Shown: piece after piece, positions 1,146 through 28,366 of the stretch
Position numbering within the stretch: the stretch's first letter is position 1
Layout: each line of letters begins with the position of its first letter
Virus record (IMG/VR): IMGVR_UViG_3300029309_000146
Coordinates: 1-34,583 of that record
Reading direction: 5' to 3' (one strand)
Source of the DNA: a virus
Length of the DNA: 34,583 nucleotides
Program-made: the position numbers and the translations under genes
The notes under the pieces: generated by a model
The model's input: the letters and a program-made list of their open reading frames with translations, nothing else
Told to the model about the DNA's origin: nothing
Database searches by the model: none

Positions 1146-1268
1146 TTACTTACGATTTTTGTATAGTTGATTATTCTTTTCTTTAAGTTTGTCATTCTTA
1201 AATATTTTATCCCAATTTATATCTATTTTCTTTTTATCTTCAGGCCTGCGCTTACTACCTTTTGACAT
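1146..1268 (-). CDS. Small basic protein starting MSKGSKRRP (40 aa)
   Basis: This 40-aa, highly charged, Lys-rich protein begins MSKGSKRRPEDKKKI. Short phage proteins with the same N-terminal pattern (M-S-x-G-S-K-x-R-P) recur in marine and T7-like phages, which argues that it is real despite its size. Its ATG lies inside the end of the upstream gene (14-base overlap), consistent with reinitiation. A conserved WDKIF segment follows. The function is not known. A nucleic-acid-binding role is possible from charge alone. Confidence 0.55.
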   Translation of the reverse strand: MSKGSKRRPEDKKKIDINWDKIFKNDKLKEKNNQLYKNRK

Positions 1269-1782
1269 AATCTATTTTATTAAAAGTTGGACTAAAGTTG
1301 CTTTGTGTAAGTTCTTCTTTAGCATCTATGCAATGTTCTGGAATGCATCTAAACAATTCTTCAATACTAAATATAATGCAATCTTGTTCTTGCTTATATT
1401 TATCATATACATTTTCTAACTCATAGTCATTACCAACTATGAGGACATACTTATCTTTATTGTATTTGTAGCAAGATACATTTGGATCAAGCTCTACATA
1501 TCCATTATCTGTAGCAGCTTCAATAATTGCATCATATGCTCTTTGCATCATCTCACACATAGAAAATATCTTTTTATAATTATGTTCTTTCAATGACTCT
1601 TTAAACATCCACTCTGCTCTTTCAAACTTTAATGCAACATTGCTTGGTATTATTTTTAATAATCTTTTCTTACCACCCCACTTGTTTGCAATTTCAGATT
1701 CAATCTTCCTAAGTATTTTAATCTGTAACAAAGCATTATCTTTAAATATTTGTTTCATGGATATATCAAAAACTTGGATCAT
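1255..1782 (-). CDS. Hypothetical protein downstream of the iteron cluster
   Basis: This 175-aa soluble protein was not recognised. It is helical and mixed-charge in the N-terminal two thirds (KILRKIESEIANKW, ALKFERAEWMFKESL) and has a beta-type C-terminal third containing YVLIVGNDYELENV. The longest start is ATG at 1782; the second Met (MKQIFKDN, eight codons later) is equally possible because neither has a clear Shine-Dalgarno sequence. It is the first gene after the phased TATCCAC repeats and follows the primase/helicase, so a role in replication initiation or its control is worth testing. Nothing in the sequence shows a known domain. Confidence 0.6.
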   Translation of the reverse strand: MIQVFDISMKQIFKDNALLQIKILRKIESEIANKWGGKKRLLKIIPSNVALKFERAEWMFKESLKEHNYKKIFSMCEMMQRAYDAIIEAATDNGYVELDPNVSCYKYNKDKYVLIVGNDYELENVYDKYKQEQDCIIFSIEELFRCIPEHCIDAKEELTQSNFSPTFNKIDYVKR

Positions 1783-1785
1783 TGA

Positions 1786-1906
1786 TGGATATATGGATAT
1801 ATCCTAAAGGATATATATCCATTATATCCACTACAAGTTGATTTTGGATAGAAAATAGCCAATTTATATCCACTTTATATCCACATCTATCCACTTTTCT
1901 ATCCAC
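1786..1906. repeat. Iteron cluster, candidate replication origin or regulator-binding array
   Basis: On the plus strand the heptamer TATCCAC occurs at 1825-1831, 1867-1873, 1878-1884, 1888-1894 and 1900-1906, with a TATCCAT variant at 1816-1822. The last four copies start 11, 10 and 12 bases apart, close to one helical turn, so all would face the same side of the DNA. Inverted copies (GGATA) lie at about 1788, 1795, 1809 and 1846. The stretch is AT-rich, non-coding, and sits directly after the primase/helicase stop codon, which touches the last repeat. This matches the general form of iteron-type origins. A transcriptional operator array is the alternative. Confidence 0.55.
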
Positions 1907-3777
1907 TAAAACACTCCCTCATCCCATTTTTTAGCCTGATAACCGTAATTTTCTTTGTAATGTACTAAACCTTTTTCTTTTAATTGCTTTAATCTTCCCT
2001 GCGCAGTCTTACGTTTTACCTTTAATATGCCCTCTAAATCTGCCGCATTTAGCCACACGCTTACAGGATCGTCAGGGCATTGTTGTTCAGCAACAGTTAT
2101 AAGTGCCTTGATAGTCTCTTCATTGACTGTAGATTCTTTAATATCTATTGGCTTATCTTCTGGTATCAATACACCACTTGTTAAATTATCAAAACCAAGC
2201 AAATTTACTTCATGGAACTTGTATTGCATTTTGGCCATACCCATACCGTCCTTGTTAAGTGTTTGTTCAAAATCAAGCCACATCTCATCAATAATATCGT
2301 CTCTGGTTACTTTAAATTCATAATCCAGACTTGCTTGTATAACGCTTGAACCTCTTGCTCTTGCATTTGCACCATGACCTGTATGATGTACAAAGCAGCA
2401 TGTCGCACCAAACTCAGCAACTAACTTATCTAGACGTTGTATAAATAAACCCACATCTTCACTAGAGTTTTCATTACCAGAGAAATTACGCTGAAACGTA
2501 TCAAATATAATGAATCCAATACTGCCATATTCATCCTCTATCTCTTTGCAGGTGTCAAGCAGCTTATTAAACTCATCTTCTTCTGTGATCCTAGAACCTC
2601 TATTAGAAAGCAGCAGAGGTGCTTTAGACAAGTCTTTATTAAAGTATTGTTCATAAGCCTTGATACGTCTACCAATGCCTCTCTGGCCTTCTCCACATAA
2701 ATAAAGTGTAGTTGCCTGTTTGCTTGGACTTCCATAAAACTCCTCTCCCATCGCAACAGCACACGCCATAGCGATAGCTACAAAAGATTTACCTGATTTA
2801 GCAGCACCAAAGATAGACATTACTGATTCTTTTTCAAACATATCTTGTATCAACCAGTCAGGCTCTTTAACCTGTGCCATTACTTCGTCAATGCGTTGGA
2901 AGTAAATATCACTTTTAGGCGGTAACATTTGATTACCTTTTATATATTGCTCTAAAGCAAAACTATTATCAAAGTAATTACTTACGTTGGCATCCCAAAG
3001 ATCGTCCTTATCTGCAAAGTCTTTAGGTGGTAAAGCTATCCTTACACTACATCCGTTCTTCTTCAGATACTTCCCTAACTCCCATGCAGCTTCTTTACCT
3101 ACATCATCATTGTCTGGAAAGATATAAACATCTCTATTAAATATAGGCGACCAGTCTGATTTCTCCCAAGACCTAGCTCCACCATGCCAGCAAGCCACAT
3201 CCCAATCATACATCTTGCCTGCTCCTAAGCACGCCTTCTCTCCCTCATTGATGAGGATTGGCTTATCAAGATGGTTGCACTCACTATATATAGGCAACTT
3301 GCCCTCTGGTCTACGCATAAACCAACTATCACCAACCTTAGTAAAAGGTGCGTACTTTTGTTTGATTGGATGATTGTCTGGAAAGCGTAAGACTATAAAG
3401 CTGTCATTATATTTAAGTTTTACAACAGCTTCAGACCAAAGCTGAAGTAATTTATCTCTAGAGATCGGCTTTGCACCCACTATGTTAGGAGTAGCTATGG
3501 CAACATCTTTTCTAGTGGAGGTAATTATGCTGTTGCCATTTGGTGCAAAGCCTAGATCAAACTTTTGCAAAATGTCTTTATCTACATTCTTTATCTCTAA
3601 TAACCAGGCTACACCTCCGCCTTCGTCATTTTCAAAGTCAAAGAAAGTACCTGCTTCTTTGTTAAATACAAAGCTCCCCTTTGATCCCCACCGCCATTCT
3701 TTATCTGTTTTAGTTTTCGGTTCTCCTAATACCTCTAAAGCAATCTGTGGAGCTACATTAACCCACTTATCTTGCAT
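1906..3777 (-). CDS. Primase/helicase: TOPRIM domain plus RecA-like (RepA-type) ATPase
   Basis: The product is 623 aa. The N-terminal part (1-160) resembles phage primase N-termini but lacks zinc-binding cysteines. Residues about 174-226 form a TOPRIM core: ILINEGEKA supplies the glutamate, and FPDNDDVG supplies the DxD acidic residues. Residues about 305-500 are a RecA-fold ATPase with Walker A FGAAKSGKS (323-331), Walker B FIIFDTF (Asp426) and a conserved HHTGHGANARARGSS segment, as in RepA-like hexameric helicases. The C-terminus (about 550-615) looks like a winged helix (AADLEGILKVKRKTAQGRLKQL). It would unwind DNA and prime synthesis at the fork. It follows the SSB-like gene by three bases and precedes the iteron cluster. 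No DNA polymerase gene is present, so host polymerase is presumably used. Confidence 0.88.
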   Translation of the reverse strand: MQDKWVNVAPQIALEVLGEPKTKTDKEWRWGSKGSFVFNKEAGTFFDFENDEGGGVAWLLEIKNVDKDILQKFDLGFAPNGNSIITSTRKDVAIATPNIVGAKPISRDKLLQLWSEAVVKLKYNDSFIVLRFPDNHPIKQKYAPFTKVGDSWFMRRPEGKLPIYSECNHLDKPILINEGEKACLGAGKMYDWDVACWHGGARSWEKSDWSPIFNRDVYIFPDNDDVGKEAAWELGKYLKKNGCSVRIALPPKDFADKDDLWDANVSNYFDNSFALEQYIKGNQMLPPKSDIYFQRIDEVMAQVKEPDWLIQDMFEKESVMSIFGAAKSGKSFVAIAMACAVAMGEEFYGSPSKQATTLYLCGEGQRGIGRRIKAYEQYFNKDLSKAPLLLSNRGSRITEEDEFNKLLDTCKEIEDEYGSIGFIIFDTFQRNFSGNENSSEDVGLFIQRLDKLVAEFGATCCFVHHTGHGANARARGSSVIQASLDYEFKVTRDDIIDEMWLDFEQTLNKDGMGMAKMQYKFHEVNLLGFDNLTSGVLIPEDKPIDIKESTVNEETIKALITVAEQQCPDDPVSVWLNAADLEGILKVKRKTAQGRLKQLKEKGLVHYKENYGYQAKKWDEGVF

Positions 3778-3780
3778 GAT

Positions 3781-4374
3781 CTAAAATGGCAAATCATCTT
3801 CACGCAAATCACCGCTCTTAGCGACCTGTTCATCAACCTTATCACTAAGACCTGCATTTGGACTAACCCAATCATCATCATTAGGCGCATCAAACGTAGG
3901 AATAACAAACGTATCTTTTCTTGGTTTCCAATCTACAAAAGAAAAGTTAGCTCTGTTAAAGTCATTCATCTTACCTTTTATAGTTTCTGTACCTGTAAAT
4001 GCAAAACATGGTAACGCAGGCTTTTTCTCATTCCATTGGTTATAGCATCCTCTAAGTATCTCTAACATAGTTTGATACTCATTTACGCTGTTGCGTTGCC
4101 AAAGTAAAGGTCTATCCTCTACGCCATCAACCATCACCCATATACTAAATGCTCTTGTCCAACCATGTCCTGCTGGTGGTTGTGATTTAGCACCAACAAC
4201 ATCATCCCAGACAAACTCATAGCCACCCTCATATCTTCCCCAACCTGTTTGCAATGTATCTAGATCAAGTTGCATATATTTAAACTTACACTCCTGGTCT
4301 GCAAGCTTAAAAGTCTTTTCTTTGCTTATAAATTTTAGATAAATTGAATTATCTGATTCTTGTAGTATTTCCAT
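3781..4374 (-). CDS. Putative single-stranded DNA-binding protein
   Basis: The product is 197 aa, predicted mainly beta in the first 150 residues and followed by a low-complexity acidic tail. It ends in EDDLPF, the acidic-hydrophobic C-terminal tip typical of bacterial and phage SSB proteins, which recruits partner proteins. Residues 40-75 (GWGRYEGGYEFVWDD...) and the motif LPCFAFTGT fit a family of phage ssDNA-binding proteins by general character, though I cannot name the family. It lies immediately before the primase/helicase and downstream of nuclease genes. The ATG has an ideal ribosome binding site (AAAGGAGATATATATG), suggesting strong expression, as expected for an SSB. Confidence 0.7.
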   Translation of the reverse strand: MEILQESDNSIYLKFISKEKTFKLADQECKFKYMQLDLDTLQTGWGRYEGGYEFVWDDVVGAKSQPPAGHGWTRAFSIWVMVDGVEDRPLLWQRNSVNEYQTMLEILRGCYNQWNEKKPALPCFAFTGTETIKGKMNDFNRANFSFVDWKPRKDTFVIPTFDAPNDDDWVSPNAGLSDKVDEQVAKSGDLREDDLPF

Positions 4375-4981: not shown

Positions 4982-5200
4982 TTATAAACCCTCCACGTCA
5001 AAATCAACATTTGTCAAATCATGTTTTACAGAATTAATACCTAGTTTTAAAAAGTATTCTGCAAGTTGTCCCATAGGTTTACCAGTTTGTGCGGATAACA
5101 CCTTAAGTTCTTTATGCACATCTTTATATACCCAAATAGCCTCCTTGCCCACTTTCTCCATAGTCTTATCATCCATAAAGTCTGTTGTTTTAGTCCTCAT
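4982..5200 (-). CDS. Putative ribbon-helix-helix-type small protein (72 aa)
   Basis: The 72-aa product contains a stretch (residues about 21-57, AIWVYKDVHKELKVLSAQTG then MGQLAEYFLKLGINS) that fits a ribbon-helix-helix pattern: a short strand, a helix beginning with HKELK, a Gly turn and a second helix. Such proteins usually bind operators as dimers. The gene overlaps the exonuclease gene by 11 bases and abuts the resolvase-like gene. It could regulate the early operon, for instance at the inverted repeat upstream of 6312, but that is inference. The fold call is from pattern only. Confidence 0.5.
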   Translation of the reverse strand: MRTKTTDFMDDKTMEKVGKEAIWVYKDVHKELKVLSAQTGKPMGQLAEYFLKLGINSVKHDLTNVDFDVEGL

Positions 5201-7376: not shown

Positions 7377-7850
7377 TTAATCCTCTTTAGTATGTGATGC
7401 TCCAAAATAAAAAGATATGATCGCACTAGCTAATCCACCTAAATATCCTAGAACTAAGTTAATTAAAGCTTCACTATTTTGCTCTGGTGGTTGTAAGGTT
7501 ACTAAAAATATATAACCTAAAAAACCACCTATAGTGAATAACCCAATGATTCTTGCTGTCCAGTCTTTACTAAACATGCTTCTTGCATGTTGTTTGTCTT
7601 GCGTTTCTAATTTAAATATATCAACGTCTAACTCTTTCATTTGTGTCTCAAACTGTTGCTCTGCTTTCTTAAGTTCAAGCATTTGTTCTGGCGTTGCATT
7701 TTGTAATGCTTGTTGAATTGATTTTTGATCATTAGAAACACCAAGAGTCTTAGCTATAAGATTTGCTGCCATACCACCCATAGGAGTACCAAGCGCTGTT
7801 CCAAGTGTCGGTGCTACTGCGCCAACTATATTTTTAAGTATTGCTTTCAT
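7377..7850 (-). CDS. Holin, 3-TM type (GTA_holin_3TM-like)
   Basis: The product is 157 aa. The N-terminal region (about 5-40) is small-residue-rich and hydrophobic (VGAVAPTLGTALGTPMGGMAANLI). A soluble helical part follows (QKSIQQALQNATPEQMLELK...), then KDWTARIIGLFTIGGFLGYI and a last hydrophobic segment LINLVLGYLGGLASAIISFY, ending in a charged tail. This order matches 3-TM holins of gene transfer agents and related phages. It would permeabilise the inner membrane to release the lysozyme. Its start lies 17 bases inside the end of the cyclase gene, tying the cyclase to the lysis cassette. Confidence 0.8.
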   Translation of the reverse strand: MKAILKNIVGAVAPTLGTALGTPMGGMAANLIAKTLGVSNDQKSIQQALQNATPEQMLELKKAEQQFETQMKELDVDIFKLETQDKQHARSMFSKDWTARIIGLFTIGGFLGYIFLVTLQPPEQNSEALINLVLGYLGGLASAIISFYFGASHTKED

Positions 7851-9585
7851 AGGTATATATCTTTAATTTATTACTTTTGCCTTTAACTTTAATAGGCTTT
7901 AGAGATTTTAACCTATATTTGGTATTTTTTTTAGTATTGTGACCAATTACTAAATCTGCGCCTACATCCTTAGTGGCACTTTCAAACCTTGCTGCTGTGT
8001 TTACAGCATCACCTATTGCACTATAATCAAAGCGTGTGTCGCTTCCCATATTACCTATTATTGCTGCTCCTGAGTTTATGCCTATACCTATCTCTATACC
8101 TAGATCGGCTTGCACCATATCTTCCTGTATTTTCAATGCTGCTGCTATGGCTTTATTCTCATGTTCAGGCAAATCTATAGGTGCATTAAATATAGCCATC
8201 ATCGCATCACCTATATACTTATCAACCATGCCACCATACTCTTTAACTGCATTTGCTTGTATTGTCAAAACTTGGTTCATAATGTTTGTAACTTGTTCTG
8301 GCTCAAGTCTTTCTGATAAAGATGTAAACCCACGAACATCCGTAAATAAAAAAGTGCAATATTTTCTCTCACCGCCTAGTTTTAACTGTCCTGGATTATC
8401 TTGTAATAGCTTAACCTGTCTTGGATCAAGATAATGCTCAAACTGTTTTTTTATTAATTGTCTTAATTTGTACTGTTCCATAAAGCGTAAATAGAAAGCT
8501 GTAGCACTTGTTATAAATTGTGATATTAAAGTCCAGGTTACGTCTATTAAAAGACCTTTTTGAATCATTATGTAGCCACCAGAAGCCACACAAAGCATTA
8601 AAAAACTACCTATACCTAAACCCCATGCAAACCCAAAAGAAGTTAGTACAAGCCATGACAAAGCGACAAAAATTGTAAAAATAGCTATTTCTAACCCAAA
8701 ACTCCAATCAGGTATGCTTGGCGAATCAGGTATTAATATAGATTCTGCTAACGCAGCTTGTATCTTGTGTGGCTCAAGTAGATTGTTTGGTACTGCTATT
8801 TGAGGCATTATGCCAGCAGCAGTAAAACCGACAAAAACATATCTACCCTCAACATCCATTTCTTGCAAGGTTGTTTGTTGCGTATCAACCCAAGTTATCC
8901 ATTTACGTCCAAAACTATCTGTTTTTACAGGAGCTAAACCTTGTACAGTAATTTCTTCTATACCAAGATCACTTGTTTTTATGATGTATGAACTATTGCC
9001 AGCTAAAACTTTCATTACCTCAGTTCCATACGCAGAAACAAAACCATCTGGTGTTTGTAACATGAGAGGTATCCTTCTTACCAAGTTATCAACTTCTGTT
9101 GGTGCTACTGCTATCCCTTGATTTGCGCAATCTGCAAGTGCATCTATATTTTGCACTACACCTGTTGATGGTATTCCTGTAACCGCATTATTGCCAAGTA
9201 TTACTGTGCCAGATGTTGCAGGATAATTACTGCTACCATCTTCAAACATTGCCAGCACAGAACCACCATAACAAAGAGCTTCAGCAAAAGCTGCATCACC
9301 GCCAAATCTGTCTGATTGTGGAAAGGATAAAACCCATCCAACACCTAAAGCTCCTCTTTGTAAAAGCTCTATATGTATCTCTGCTAATCTTTGTCTAGGT
9401 AGTGGGTATCCGCCTTCTCTTGCTACATCTTCTTCAGTAATATTAAGAATTGTAAAGAAACCAGACTCGTCATATTCTTTTACTAAAGCATCAAAAGTTC
9501 TAAGCTTAATAACTTCTACAAAAGTCCATTGAAATATTAGAGGTATTGCTAACAATGGCAAAATGATAAATATTAGTTTTTTCAA
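7834..9585 (-). CDS. CHASE2-domain class III adenylate cyclase, membrane-bound
   Basis: The product is 583 aa with a TTG start. Topology is typical of CHASE2 proteins: TM helix at 3-20, a large extracytoplasmic sensor (about 25-290, opening VEVIKLRTFDALV), then three TM helices at about 297-315, 320-340 and 347-366. The cytoplasmic class III cyclase domain spans 405-580. Metal-binding Asp416 (FTDVRGF) and Asp460 (DKYIGD), Lys456 at the purine-specifying position, Ser522 in the partner position, and Asn529/Arg533 (NTAARF) are all present, so the enzyme looks active and adenylate-specific. It would make cAMP in response to a periplasmic signal. It begins two bases after the FecR gene stop. A full sensor cyclase in a phage of this size is unusual. 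Confidence 0.93.
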   Translation of the reverse strand: MKKLIFIILPLLAIPLIFQWTFVEVIKLRTFDALVKEYDESGFFTILNITEEDVAREGGYPLPRQRLAEIHIELLQRGALGVGWVLSFPQSDRFGGDAAFAEALCYGGSVLAMFEDGSSNYPATSGTVILGNNAVTGIPSTGVVQNIDALADCANQGIAVAPTEVDNLVRRIPLMLQTPDGFVSAYGTEVMKVLAGNSSYIIKTSDLGIEEITVQGLAPVKTDSFGRKWITWVDTQQTTLQEMDVEGRYVFVGFTAAGIMPQIAVPNNLLEPHKIQAALAESILIPDSPSIPDWSFGLEIAIFTIFVALSWLVLTSFGFAWGLGIGSFLMLCVASGGYIMIQKGLLIDVTWTLISQFITSATAFYLRFMEQYKLRQLIKKQFEHYLDPRQVKLLQDNPGQLKLGGERKYCTFLFTDVRGFTSLSERLEPEQVTNIMNQVLTIQANAVKEYGGMVDKYIGDAMMAIFNAPIDLPEHENKAIAAALKIQEDMVQADLGIEIGIGINSGAAIIGNMGSDTRFDYSAIGDAVNTAARFESATKDVGADLVIGHNTKKNTKYRLKSLKPIKVKGKSNKLKIYTYESNT

Positions 9586-9586
9586 G

Positions 9587-10750
9587 TTAGTTCTCTTGTT
9601 TTATTCTTATAATACTATCACTTCCGCCATTAATTTTAATAGTTCTTGAAACGCCATTCTGGATAATAATAACTGTATAGCTATCATCTGAATTTATGTC
9701 TAACCTTGCTGTGCTATTAATACTTCTTAGAATAGTAAGTTTTTCACCAGTAAGAAATGTTGTGATTTGTGTATCTAAATCTTGGCCAAAATTTGTACCT
9801 GCTATTTGTACAGAGCTTACATCTGCTTGTAATTGGTCTTGTTCTTCTTGTATTTCTAATTCATCTAATATGTTTAGCAAATCTTCTAAAAAATTCACAT
9901 CTAAGTAATTTATATCTAATTCTGTAAATTCTAATTCACTCTCATTGTCTAAAAAATCTTCTTCTAAATAATCAATATCAAGATCATTAAAATCAAGAAT
10001 ATTTTTTGACTGTGTGATTATTTTTTCTTGTTCTAAAACTTTTTCTTCTGGTGGCGAAACTATTAAAATATTATCTATTAAGTCCAAAGATAAATCTAAA
10101 ACTACAGGCTTGCTAGGTGCATTTTCAAACACAGAAACCGTAGTAGCTTCAAATGGTTTATTAAGTATGACACTTCCTGTTGCTGTTATAACTTCTATTT
10201 CACCACTAGATAATCCATACTTATCAGGCAAAAGTATAATCAAACTTTCACCAAGCTCATTAACTGTTGCTGTAAAGTCCGTGCCACGAATAGCAATATT
10301 TGCTGTTGGTGTTTTCAATGAAATATTTTTTTTGTTTATTTTATCAATGTTGCCAGATATAAACCTGGTCGTTCCTAGTGCGAAAGTAAGAGCCATTTTA
10401 GATTTTGCAGGGTTAGGATTGTAAACATATTCGTTAATTAGTAACTGACTATGTTCTGTAAGTCGTACAATAGAATCATCAAGAAATGTAATAGCCATAC
10501 GACCATTTGATGTAATTGCTTCATCGTTGCTTTGTATATCAAAATCTACAAAAGCATTTAAGGGTGCATCCCTTATTATCTTTGCGTTACCTCTTAGTTC
10601 AGAGACATCACCAATACTAGCATCCTGTTGTTGTGCCTTGATCGTTTTGAACGACACAAATAGTGGAATTAGAAGTATTACTAATAATTTTAAGATAATC
10701 TCTTGCAAGCGTAGATGCTTGCGTAATGTCAATATCATTTGAACTACCAT
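9587..10750 (-). CDS. FecR-domain periplasmic protein
   Basis: The product is up to 387 aa. A basic N-terminus leads into a signal peptide (about 19-40, ILKLLVILLIPLFVSF...) ending near IKAQQ. Residues about 46-220 form a FecR domain: SIGDVSELRGNA, the G-x-x-AITSNGRMAITFLDDS strand pair, and TPTANIAIRGTDFTATV. The 245-320 region is very acidic with Leu-Asp repeats (LDIDYLEEDFLD, LDINYLDVNFLED). FecR domains bind periplasmic ligands and often pair with CHASE2 or sigma/anti-sigma partners, and here a CHASE2 cyclase follows two bases later. The start is uncertain: the first 134 bases, including the whole signal peptide, overlap the end of the curlin-like gene in another frame, and no clear ribosome binding site was found. 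Confidence 0.85.
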   Translation of the reverse strand: MVVQMILTLRKHLRLQEIILKLLVILLIPLFVSFKTIKAQQQDASIGDVSELRGNAKIIRDAPLNAFVDFDIQSNDEAITSNGRMAITFLDDSIVRLTEHSQLLINEYVYNPNPAKSKMALTFALGTTRFISGNIDKINKKNISLKTPTANIAIRGTDFTATVNELGESLIILLPDKYGLSSGEIEVITATGSVILNKPFEATTVSVFENAPSKPVVLDLSLDLIDNILIVSPPEEKVLEQEKIITQSKNILDFNDLDIDYLEEDFLDNESELEFTELDINYLDVNFLEDLLNILDELEIQEEQDQLQADVSSVQIAGTNFGQDLDTQITTFLTGEKLTILRSINSTARLDINSDDSYTVIIIQNGVSRTIKINGGSDSIIRIKQEN

Positions 10751-11342
10751 CTAAATCAAGATAAAAATATGCAGAATCAGCAGATGTAGTGCCACCATAA
10801 CCGCTACCACTAAAATCTAAATCGTTTGAATTACCGTTTATGTCAACGTAATTAATTGCGTTTGCATAATCAATGTCAAAATTTAGATTATTACTATCAC
10901 CTAAAATAATCCAGTCTAAGTCAAGATATGATGAATCTGCATTTTCTGCAATTGCTAAATCAATTTGATTACTGCCACCTGTTACATCAATATTTAAATC
11001 AATATAATCTGCTGATATAAGTCCTGTACTATTTAGAAGTATATCTAATATGTTGCTGTCACCCTCAAATTCAAAAAAGCCTGTAAAGTTATCACCATCA
11101 ATTGCATCTGATCTAAATATGTTAGATGATCCTATTTGGTTTATGTCAAGTGTCATAGAAACACCATCAAGATCAAGAGCAGTCATTGTTCCAGAAGTGG
11201 CCTCAGAGCCACCAATTAAGTTTGATCCGCCCAACTGCTCAAGATCAATATTTGCTGTGTTACCAGACTGATCTACATATATCTCATTATCTGCAAGTAC
11301 AGATAACGACAAAAATAAAGCTATATTTAATAATTTATTCAT
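10617..11342 (-). CDS. Secreted curlin-like repeat protein (CsgA/CsgB-type)
   Basis: The product is 241 aa from ATG at 11342 (MNKLLNIALFLSLSVLA signal peptide, cleaved before DNE). The mature protein consists of about seven degenerate units with an alternating-strand pattern and a G-x-S-N turn: VDQSGN, EQLGGSN, NQIGSSN, FEGDSN, VTGGSN, ILGDSN, INGNSN, LDGSSN. The first units keep curlin-like Gln and Asn; later ones replace Gln with Asp, giving a very acidic protein. The tail carries two Cys residues. Curlins polymerise into amyloid fibres outside the cell after export by CsgG. The start codon overlaps the csgG stop, so the substrate and its channel are coupled. An acidic beta-solenoid rather than an amyloid is the alternative. 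Confidence 0.78.
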   Translation of the reverse strand: MNKLLNIALFLSLSVLADNEIYVDQSGNTANIDLEQLGGSNLIGGSEATSGTMTALDLDGVSMTLDINQIGSSNIFRSDAIDGDNFTGFFEFEGDSNILDILLNSTGLISADYIDLNIDVTGGSNQIDLAIAENADSSYLDLDWIILGDSNNLNFDIDYANAINYVDINGNSNDLDFSGSGYGGTTSADSAYFYLDLDGSSNDIDITQASTLARDYLKIISNTSNSTICVVQNDQGTTTGC

Positions 11343-12147
11343 ATTTCCAATACCCTCTATCATATCCTATTTTTATAAGTTGTAAAACTGCGCCTTCAAT
11401 TGCTTTCATTAAAGCTATAGTTGTACTTTCATTAGAAGCAGAGCCAATCTCAACTTCTACAAGCTCTGTACCCATTTCTATAAATTTAAAAACATCTTGC
11501 GATTGTCCATAACTATAGATAGTTTTTTGTGACATCACTTCTATTAGTATCTCTCCTGTAGCAACAGATACCATACGCAGACTGACGGTTATTGAATCTT
11601 CTCTATATTGCATGCTTGAGCCTAGTCCAAGCCATCTTGCACCGATACCTCCTGTTTGCAAGTTACTATCCAGGCTAACTACAGCACCTTCAAGCAATAC
11701 ACCTGCAAAAAGTAATGGAGATAGTACATTTTCATCACTCAACTGCTCTCTGGTACTTCTTATAAGCTGTCTTTCTTTAGTAAGATTATCAAGACCAACT
11801 CTTTCTACAACGCGAAAAAAATTACCATTAGCTGCGTGTTTTAAAGATCGTATTAGTATTGTGTGTGGTGCTTGAGTAATAGCAGATGAAAATAATGCAA
11901 ACTCACTATTGCTTTTACGTTGGCCTGTTTGATCTGTAAAAGACGAAGGATATACAGCAACGACAGGTTTTACAATCGGAGCTTCTACAAATGCAAGCTC
12001 TTTTGATTGTAAGTCAAATATTGAATATTTATTAAGTCCTTTGCTTTCAAACCTTTCAGGTCTAGTATCTTTGACAACATCAAAGACCGCGCAACTAGAA
12101 AGAGAAATCGCCAAGAGGCAAAGATATTTCAGTTGTTGTCCCATCAT
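11335..12147 (-). CDS. csgG: CsgG-family outer-membrane curli secretion channel lipoprotein
   Basis: The product is 270 aa. A lipoprotein signal ends in LSSC (Cys19), followed by features found along the length of CsgG: VVAVYPSSFTDQTGQRK, SSAITQAPHTILIRSLK, FFRVVERVGLDNLTKERQLIRSTRE, LLFAGVLLEGAVVSLDSN, the GGIGARWLGLG segment, ITVSLRMVSVATGEIL and a C-terminal EGAVLQLIKIGYDRGYW. Length and order fit Escherichia coli CsgG closely. CsgG forms a nine-subunit outer-membrane pore for unfolded curli subunits. It overlaps csgF by 53 bases and the curlin-like gene by eight. No csgE or csgC homologue is present, so gating and chaperone help would come from the host or be unnecessary. Confidence 0.94.
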   Translation of the reverse strand: MMGQQLKYLCLLAISLSSCAVFDVVKDTRPERFESKGLNKYSIFDLQSKELAFVEAPIVKPVVAVYPSSFTDQTGQRKSNSEFALFSSAITQAPHTILIRSLKHAANGNFFRVVERVGLDNLTKERQLIRSTREQLSDENVLSPLLFAGVLLEGAVVSLDSNLQTGGIGARWLGLGSSMQYREDSITVSLRMVSVATGEILIEVMSQKTIYSYGQSQDVFKFIEMGTELVEVEIGSASNESTTIALMKAIEGAVLQLIKIGYDRGYWKYE

Positions 12148-27118: not shown

Positions 27119-28366
27119 TTATGAACCAGCGCAGAATGAAACTGCATGTCTCACAGCGACATCAACTGATTGTAAAGCGACTATTCTCACAGTACCAGTA
27201 GTTGACTGAGAAAAAGGATCAACAACTAGGTCAAGGCCTCCAAACATACCTATAAGCAGGTCGTTAAAGTTACCAAAAACATAATTGTTAGCTGTTAACT
27301 GTGGAGAAACAACAGCACTATAGCCATTGATCTGATCGTTTTCAGCAACAAATTGTGCTGTGTTAGTTGCTTTCTCAGTAGTTTTCAATGTGCCATAGTT
27401 AGATGGATGTACTATGTAAGCTAAATCGCCTAGTAGTGCGTTATCCACTCTGACTGCTGTTTCCATTGCTACCATTTCTGCAAAAGTAGGCGCAGCAGCA
27501 CTTGAAAGTGATACTGTGTTAATTCCTGAAGTGTTAGTAATACCTGTTGGATTACCTGAACTTCCTGATCCCTCTAATGCAGCATCATCAATAGCAATAG
27601 CCATTGAAGCAGCTAGATCGTTTCTAACAAGATTTTCTACGTCCAAAGATGATTGAATCATAAGTTGTCTTGTAATGTCTGTAAACGCACCTAATGACTT
27701 AGGAGACATACTTACATTGCCAACTGTTAACTCTGATTCACCAGCAGCGCCACCTTCTGAACTAATAAAAGCAGCAGATGCAGCAGCAGTTTTCTTTGGT
27801 ATCTTAACATCGCCTGTAAGACCATTTAGCATAGTTGCTAATGGCATAACAGCAGAGTTATTTCTTAGTACATCAATGAAATCACCTGCTCTGTAATCTT
27901 GACCGATTAGGTCTCCATCACTTCCAGCAGATAAATCTCTCTGATTCCAATTTCTTAAAACTTCATCTGGCAACATAATACCTTGAGCAGTTTGACCATA
28001 CTCTCTTTGTGCTGCTTCTGAAGCTTCAAATTCAAACTTAGCATTTTCTTGAGCTTTCCTATCTGTAGGATTAGCCATCGCATTAATAGCTCTCATTATG
28101 CTAAATCTTTTAGTTTCTTTCTCTGTAAGACCAATATCTTTTGGAGTTTCTAAAGGCACATCATTAGATATGTTATCTAATAATAGACCTCTAAATTCTT
28201 CAACAGATTTGCCTTCAGATATAGCTTGGTGTGCTAAATCTCTTTTATTGTGCTTAACAGCTAAATCAAGAATCTCTTTTGAGTTTCTTGCAAATTCTTT
28301 TTTAGCAGCTTCAGCACTTTCTGATCTAACATCATCAAGATTAATTTCTTTCTTTTCTTCTGACAT
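27119..28366 (-). CDS. Nested start: major capsid protein alone
   Basis: Codon 573 is ATG (28366-28364) preceded by AAGGATAGAAATA, a usable ribosome binding site. The product, 415 aa from MSEEKKEINLDDV, has the usual length of an HK97-type capsid precursor: an N-terminal helical, charged delta/scaffold-like region (573-690), then LPDEVLRNWNQRDLSAGS, VKIPKKTAAASAAFISSEG, FTDITRQLMIQSSLDVEN and GSGSSGNPTGI, and a C-terminal VRIVALQSVDVAVRHAVSF. Initiation here would supply the many capsid copies needed relative to protease. It is the clearest capsid boundary in the fused frame. Confidence 0.7.
   Translation of the reverse strand: MSEEKKEINLDDVRSESAEAAKKEFARNSKEILDLAVKHNKRDLAHQAISEGKSVEEFRGLLLDNISNDVPLETPKDIGLTEKETKRFSIMRAINAMANPTDRKAQENAKFEFEASEAAQREYGQTAQGIMLPDEVLRNWNQRDLSAGSDGDLIGQDYRAGDFIDVLRNNSAVMPLATMLNGLTGDVKIPKKTAAASAAFISSEGGAAGESELTVGNVSMSPKSLGAFTDITRQLMIQSSLDVENLVRNDLAASMAIAIDDAALEGSGSSGNPTGITNTSGINTVSLSSAAAPTFAEMVAMETAVRVDNALLGDLAYIVHPSNYGTLKTTEKATNTAQFVAENDQINGYSAVVSPQLTANNYVFGNFNDLLIGMFGGLDLVVDPFSQSTTGTVRIVALQSVDVAVRHAVSFCAGS

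Follow-up and report, generated by a model that had tools for sequence, protein, structure and literature searches.

Comparison with known replication systems

The origins and initiators of most tailed phages are unknown. The Rep protein of SaPIs has a C-terminal domain that reads iterons situated directly downstream of its own gene, and Cch2 of SCCmec does likewise (PMC7581432). This layout of the PICIs has been called unique among known bacterial replicons (PMC6092414). The alpha protein of P4 comprises a Toprim primase, a helicase and a winged-helix domain binding the origin repeats in one protein, pRN1 has its origin 3' of the gene of a primase-helicase with a C-terminal winged helix and requires a hairpin, and RSF1010 encodes three separate proteins, RepA, RepB' and RepC, of which RepC reads the iterons (PMC4234260). 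PLE RepA with its iterons and the ICP1 nuclease Odn exemplify iterons that diversify together with their reader and a plausible selective force behind this (PMC8263062).

In the current analysis we have considered a window of 34,583 nucleotides, the whole stretch of a viral record, which encodes a primase-helicase followed directly by a block of short repeats. The block is predicted to be the replication origin of the phage and the primase-helicase its own initiator, with a probability of roughly 0.8. The repeats are very probably the start site of DNA replication of this marine phage, as judged from their layout and conservation. The features referred to in the following sections are:

1255-1758, minus strand: gene adjoining the block, of an uncharacterised phage family; 175 aa in the gene call, 167 aa if translated from the ATG at 1758
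1755-1906 (start approximate), minus strand: whole origin-like block, ahead of the likely start of the 175-aa gene (motif positions, relatives, repeat count, conservation)
1758-1791, minus strand: inverted TGGATA copies at 1786 and 1758 (motif positions)
1794-1821, no strand assigned: hairpin TGGATATATCC-TAAA-GGATATATATCCA, with a CTTTAG apex on the minus strand and inverted iterons as its arms (folding z)
1816-1831, plus strand: iterons TATCCA (1816) and TATCCAC (1825), beginning of set 2 (motif positions)
1832-1866, no strand assigned: AT-rich spacer containing a single degenerate copy in inverted orientation, TGGATA at 1845 (motif positions, relatives)
1867-1906, plus strand: iteron set 1, TATCCAC at 1867, 1878, 1888 and 1900, GTGGATA in the gene direction (invariant or nearly so among relatives)
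1906-3777, minus strand: primase-helicase, 623 aa, with Toprim, AAA_25 (RepA-like) and a C-terminal winged-helix-like domain (Pfam and profile search)
1909-2100, minus strand: C-terminal domain, proposed iteron-reading head (weak matches to three wHTH families; covariation in relatives)
1981-2013, minus strand: candidate recognition helix RKTAQGRLKQL, residues 589-599 (alignment)
3781-4374, minus strand: SSB-like protein with DDLPF at its C-terminus, belonging to the replication module (sequence; synteny with CRP genes annotated as ssDNA-binding protein)

The element resembles the rep-ori region of SaPIs and PICIs and that of Cch2 in having the origin directly 3' of the helicase gene and iteron sets around an AT-rich region (PMC7581432, PMC6092414), and the initiator helicase would again read the iterons with its C-terminal domain, as suggested here by covariation in relatives. 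PICI Rep and Cch2, however, belong to other helicase families (PMC7581432) and have AEP-type primases, whereas the present element occurs in tailed phages and is characterised by a RecA-like helicase of the RepA family with Toprim and by a CTWWAG-like hairpin. Homology to PICI Rep (DUF927 or D5/Primase_Cterm) could not be detected in the window helicase, to which Pfam assigns AAA_25 and Toprim only.

The one-chain scheme of P4 alpha may be shared, the window chain showing a strong match to AAA_25, Toprim below the Pfam cut-off and weak wHTH matches; the helicase class differs, P4 alpha not being known as RepA-like, and in the present element the array lies next to the gene. The likeness to oriV of RSF1010 lies in the RepA-type ring helicase, the profile of a related helicase family matching RSF1010 RepA (1g8y) with an E-value of 2.6e-7, and in the iterons and short hairpins of the origin. 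Here, in contrast to RSF1010, one polypeptide would perform all the functions. Neither a separate iteron-binding initiator of the RepC type nor one like O of lambda, which had already seemed missing to the sequence-only reading, is recognised among the neighbouring genes scanned. pRN1 is similar in that its origin lies 3' of the gene of a primase-helicase ending in a winged helix (winged-helix-like, by weak matches, in the window) and in its hairpin, but is devoid of iterons and has an SF3 helicase and an archaeal-type primase. PLE differs in its RepA_N initiator without helicase and in iterons of about 30 bp.

The main text of the paper on the CRP-822-type roseophage group contains the word 'repeat' 0 times and 'origin' once and is silent on origin repeats. 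A description of the element in phages of this kind was not found in the open literature, which is not a proof of its absence.

Repeat block of the window

The repeats noticed beside the primase-helicase in the sequence-only reading are real. TATCCAC occurs on the plus strand at 1825, 1867, 1878, 1888 and 1900, with a sole further copy in the window at 27442, a partial copy, TATCCA, is present on the same strand at 1816, and inverted copies (TGGATA) are situated at 1758, 1786, 1794 and 1845. The top 7-mer in the 220 bp 3' of the helicase stop has 9 copies, whereas shuffled sequence gives 2.2 on average and 5 at most. None of the other 220-bp segments (1719 in all) attains 9 copies, which makes these 220 bp the densest in repeats of the entire stretch.

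The first iteron directly touches the stop codon of the primase-helicase. The spacing of 10-12 bases described earlier for the four-copy run was measured as 11, 10 and 12 bp, and the fifth full copy is 42 bp (4 x 10.5) away, so that the five full copies lie on one helical face. It had been stated that all copies face the same side of the DNA; this holds for the five full copies and fails for the partial and inverted ones, which are 8-9 bp apart and off the shared face. Similarly, the repeats are indeed present in the extent first assigned to them, 1786-1906, but the actual block is wider and reaches from about 1755 to 1906. Two sets, 1867-1906 and 1755-1831, flank the AT-rich segment 1832-1866 by our reading. 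The folding z of the hairpin is -1.95 in the window, and it is stronger in relatives (for instance -6.6 in L171).

Conservation in the window's own family

The first 78 bp of the block are 94-99% identical to the window in 11 IMG/VR relatives, in which the fourfold-degenerate sites of the helicase are 58-73% identical. Absence of the repeats from close relatives had been named earlier as the observation that would speak against an origin; they are present in 13 of 13 readable blocks, the sequence of a further relative (L014) ending inside the block. The iteron word is invariant across the family, with no switch seen there, and the assignment of the initiator within this family is thus based on homology and layout. 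The candidate recognition helix RKTAQGRLKQL is identical in L003, where the flanking residues differ.

Two members of the family (L002 and L009) encode a methylase-like gene, of MT-A70 type by sequence inspection, between the helicase and the block, which is intact in both. The two genes (L002:9872-10399 and L009:9869-10405) are different methylase-like genes in an identical insertion place. The outer pair of the hairpin changes from T-A to C-G in L004, L005 and L010. An RNA hairpin with a compensatory change was considered and rejected: a third iteron copy is altered as well, so the change is not an independent proof of such a structure. Close DNA matches to the block were not found in named phages.

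Occurrence in other phages

The comparison set consists of about 130 related sequences. The named relatives include the Roseobacter phages CRP-406, -811, -821, -823 and -831, connected to the window through the terminase (about 48% identical), and, linked through the helicase, Alteromonas phages PB15 and XX1924, Idiomarinaceae phage 1N2-2 and Salicola phage CGphi29. The gene neighbourhood of the window is common to the CRP phages, with a similar order of replication genes in a comparison made without the thresholds of the CRP-822-type group. All these cultured phages and most of about 100 further IMG/VR and prophage loci have the same element. The common layout 3' of the gene of a Toprim and RSF1010-RepA-like helicase comprises short iterons, a spacer and a second group of iterons placed around a hairpin, the apex of which is CTWWAG-like. 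In the named relatives the repeats of the block run in either direction, and most blocks include a hairpin with CTTTAG or a similar sequence at its apex. In L188/L189, L247, L253, L270 and ct76p945 the region 3' of the helicase gene has a weak array or none. The iteron words include GTGGATA of the window, GGTAAC, GGAAC and others, and those of the named phages are:

CRP-811 and CRP-823: ACTACAAA
CRP-821 and CRP-831: GTATAAA
CRP-406: GGCTGGAAA
PB15: GGTTCA
1N2-2: GGTACA
CGphi29: GGGGACA

The 300 bp after the helicase gene contain 2.40 perfect DnaA boxes per kb versus 0.053 per kb elsewhere, a 45-fold enrichment over 130 dereplicated loci, many of them close relatives, which inflates its p value. 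In some relatives the boxes lie mainly at both ends of the array. Together with the layout and the conservation, these boxes support the iteron-type origin proposed earlier from the letters alone. That the proposed reader is the replicative helicase points the same way. The cumulative GC skew falls monotonically, and since the genes used run on one strand, the skew minimum is uninformative as a test of the origin.

As the DnaA box TTATCCACA has TATCCAC for its core, the repeats might be bound directly by host DnaA. The five full copies agree with the box at 7 of 9 positions, one of them (ATATCCACA) at 8, and a pattern scan of IMG/VR for GTGGATA arrays recovered mostly arrays of the DnaA box TGTGGATAA, which occur in tandem at 11-12 bp spacing on many unrelated phage contigs (L022-L140). 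Against this, the window has no perfect box, the equivalent iterons of CRP phages and other relatives (ACTACAAA, GTATAAA, GGTTCA) are unlike DnaA boxes, the CRP words being without such boxes as well, and some relatives have true DnaA boxes beside a separate set of iterons. An origin driven by DnaA itself is therefore unlikely.

Covariation of the helicase tail with the iteron word

The wHTH matches of the window tail, to three families, are weak and below curated cut-offs, a profile comparison of the window tails with those of the other helicase family gave no significant match, and AlphaFold predicted the tail with low confidence (pLDDT 44), so that its model was not used. The assignment of a reading function to the tail comes from relatives. 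Where two phages have the same iteron word, the C-terminal 100 residues of their helicases match or exceed the body in conservation in most cases; where the words differ, the tail diverges. Thus CRP-823 and CRP-821 are 96.6% identical in the body and 70% in the last 100 residues, the corresponding values being 98.2 and 58.4 for L187/L190 and 90.1 and 23.6 for L178/L182. At the DNA level the divergence extends over the 3' end of the helicase gene together with the array, and in CRP-823/821, L170/L171 and L178/L182 it stops on either side of this tract. There are exceptions: PB15 and XX1924 differ at 11 of 100 tail residues with the word GGTTCA unchanged, and the tail is somewhat more divergent in L178/L180. 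PB15 and XX1924 share the segment STAKNYTKVS together with GGTTCA, although their arrays no longer align.

The tail of CRP-823 is 98.4% identical to that of CRP-811, which has the same word, versus 71.2% to CRP-821 and CRP-831. Across the CRP-823 proteome it is the only protein segment clearly tracking the iteron word; one protein of 74 aa leans in the same direction more weakly (74, 39 and 41% to CRP-811, -821 and -831).

This bears on the view that the repeats are an operator, a regulatory site for the 175-aa gene and beyond, bound by a phage repressor. Two proteins could serve as such: a 54-aa HTH protein conserved in the window's family, and a 72-aa protein (window 4982-5200), a candidate regulator weakly matching the Omega repressor (RHH) family, whose members bind short repeats. 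In favour of this view, the block is situated ahead of the 175-aa gene and remains there where other genes are inserted behind the helicase (L002, L009, ctyzp037). An operator is nevertheless improbable, given that the iteron of the CRP phages tracks the helicase tail and none of the other protein segments as clearly, that DnaA boxes bracket the array in relatives and that many other relatives have the array although the next gene is unrelated. Neither a sigma-70-like promoter nor an intrinsic terminator or Rfam RNA family was found in the block.

Residue-base correspondence in one clade

The core of the window helicase is linked by sequence to a family in which a correspondence between a tail residue and an iteron base could be read. 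Three of the 95 tail residues separate L207 from L223 (V to Q, A to S, T to P). They fall within the segment SAK-X-YIKPS or next to it, and the iterons of the two loci change in concert, GGAAC versus GTAAC. Among the loci having an SAK-X-YIKPS-type segment and three or more [CG]GNAAC words, a form chosen with the data in view, the pairing of X with N holds in 37 of 37 (V-G 16, Q-T 14, M-T 5, I-C 1, T-G 1). The class of the residue, V/T versus Q/M, changes 6 times on the tree of helicase bodies, and the independent pairs on well-supported branches agree in 4 of 4 cases (p 0.125, alone not significant). Gln is accompanied by T across distant lineages in 13 of 14 dereplicated cases versus 5 of 20 for other residues (Fisher 1e-4), in a test with a looser word form, a register chosen post hoc, after seeing the data, and loci that are related; L291 and 1N2-2 depart from this association. 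A cruder code test on the top 6-mer gave p 0.036.

Two loci with Q in the tail, L203 and L213, have no array beside the gene; matching GGTAAC arrays are situated further downstream (at about 0.3 and 1 kb), separated from the gene by inserted coding sequence, and keep the word predicted from the tail. In L213 an acyltransferase-like gene (by reading) occupies about 0-960 bases 3' of the helicase stop.

Co-transfer explains a part of the coupling, since tail and array are usually adjacent in DNA and the swapped tracts span both. That adjacency accounts for all of it, the helicase 3' end and the array merely travelling together without functional match, is very improbable in view of the three clustered substitutions with a concerted iteron change in L207/L223, the association of Gln with T across distant lineages and the words that still match after displacement of the array.

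Taken over the whole comparison, it is fairly probable that a large class of tailed phages encodes a self-contained and apparently undescribed origin unit, the initiator of which, specific to the iterons, is the Toprim/RepA-like primase-helicase itself. The reading domain would be swapped together with the array as a single cassette and, within one clade, one residue of the recognition helix would track one base per repeat. The scan of the helicase family confirmed at least 561 relatives, a large phage class in which origin and initiator could be located from sequence. The pairs Q-T and V-G provide a testable reading rule and, if true, a readable protein-DNA code that separates the origins of related phages. 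The comparison also suggests that the PICI-style arrangement, which had been regarded as unique to those islands, serves phages whose helicase is unrelated as well. Switching of iterons may stop co-infecting phages from using each other's initiators, or may evade an attack targeted to the origin.

The gene adjoining the block

The probable start of the 175-aa gene is the ATG at 1758 and not the one at 1782, as four relatives are without the upstream ATG. Its protein is predicted to fold into a helical bundle with a small alpha/beta part and matches uncharacterised phage proteins only, the family being widespread by structure (13 BFVD matches with E below 0.001); direct tblastn gave no homologues in named phages. 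That this protein is the initiator, as the sequence-only reading had proposed, is hardly credible: it always adjoins the block in the window's family and has a syntenic homologue in CRP phages and ctyzp037, but it drops to 62% identity among relatives whose repeats stay, its CRP-823 homologue is 92, 90 and 93% identical to those of CRP-811, -821 and -831 despite the different words of the latter two, and no DNA-binding fold is recognised in it. The helicase C-terminal domain appears to be a better candidate for the initiator than either the 175-aa or the 54-aa HTH protein. The steady place of the 175-aa protein beside the array hints at a role in replication, and it may be a partner, for example in loading.

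A PAPS-reductase-like gene of about 250 aa (by reading) directly follows the 175-aa gene in some relatives (L003:9414-10169, L005:10507-11262 and L012:5816-6574). CRP-831 and CRP-821 encode an annotated PAPS reductase family gene at the matching position.

Proposed initiation and neighbouring genes

From the computed anatomy, the conservation and the coupling of tail and word in relatives, we infer binding, melting, loading and priming by the primase-helicase as follows. The C-terminal winged-helix-like domain would bind the GTGGATA iterons, placing RepA-like hexamers on the two iteron sets that flank the AT-rich spacer, which would then melt. The helicase would load itself and the Toprim domain would prime, the hairpin possibly serving as entry or primer site. 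The phage SSB and the host polymerase would then take over; the latter is proposed because no DNA polymerase was found in the genes scanned.

Further along the window (7834-12147), a protein of 583 aa with CHASE2 and adenylate/guanylate cyclase domains, a FecR-domain protein and a CsgG-like protein are encoded in a row. PHROGs families exist for each of the three.
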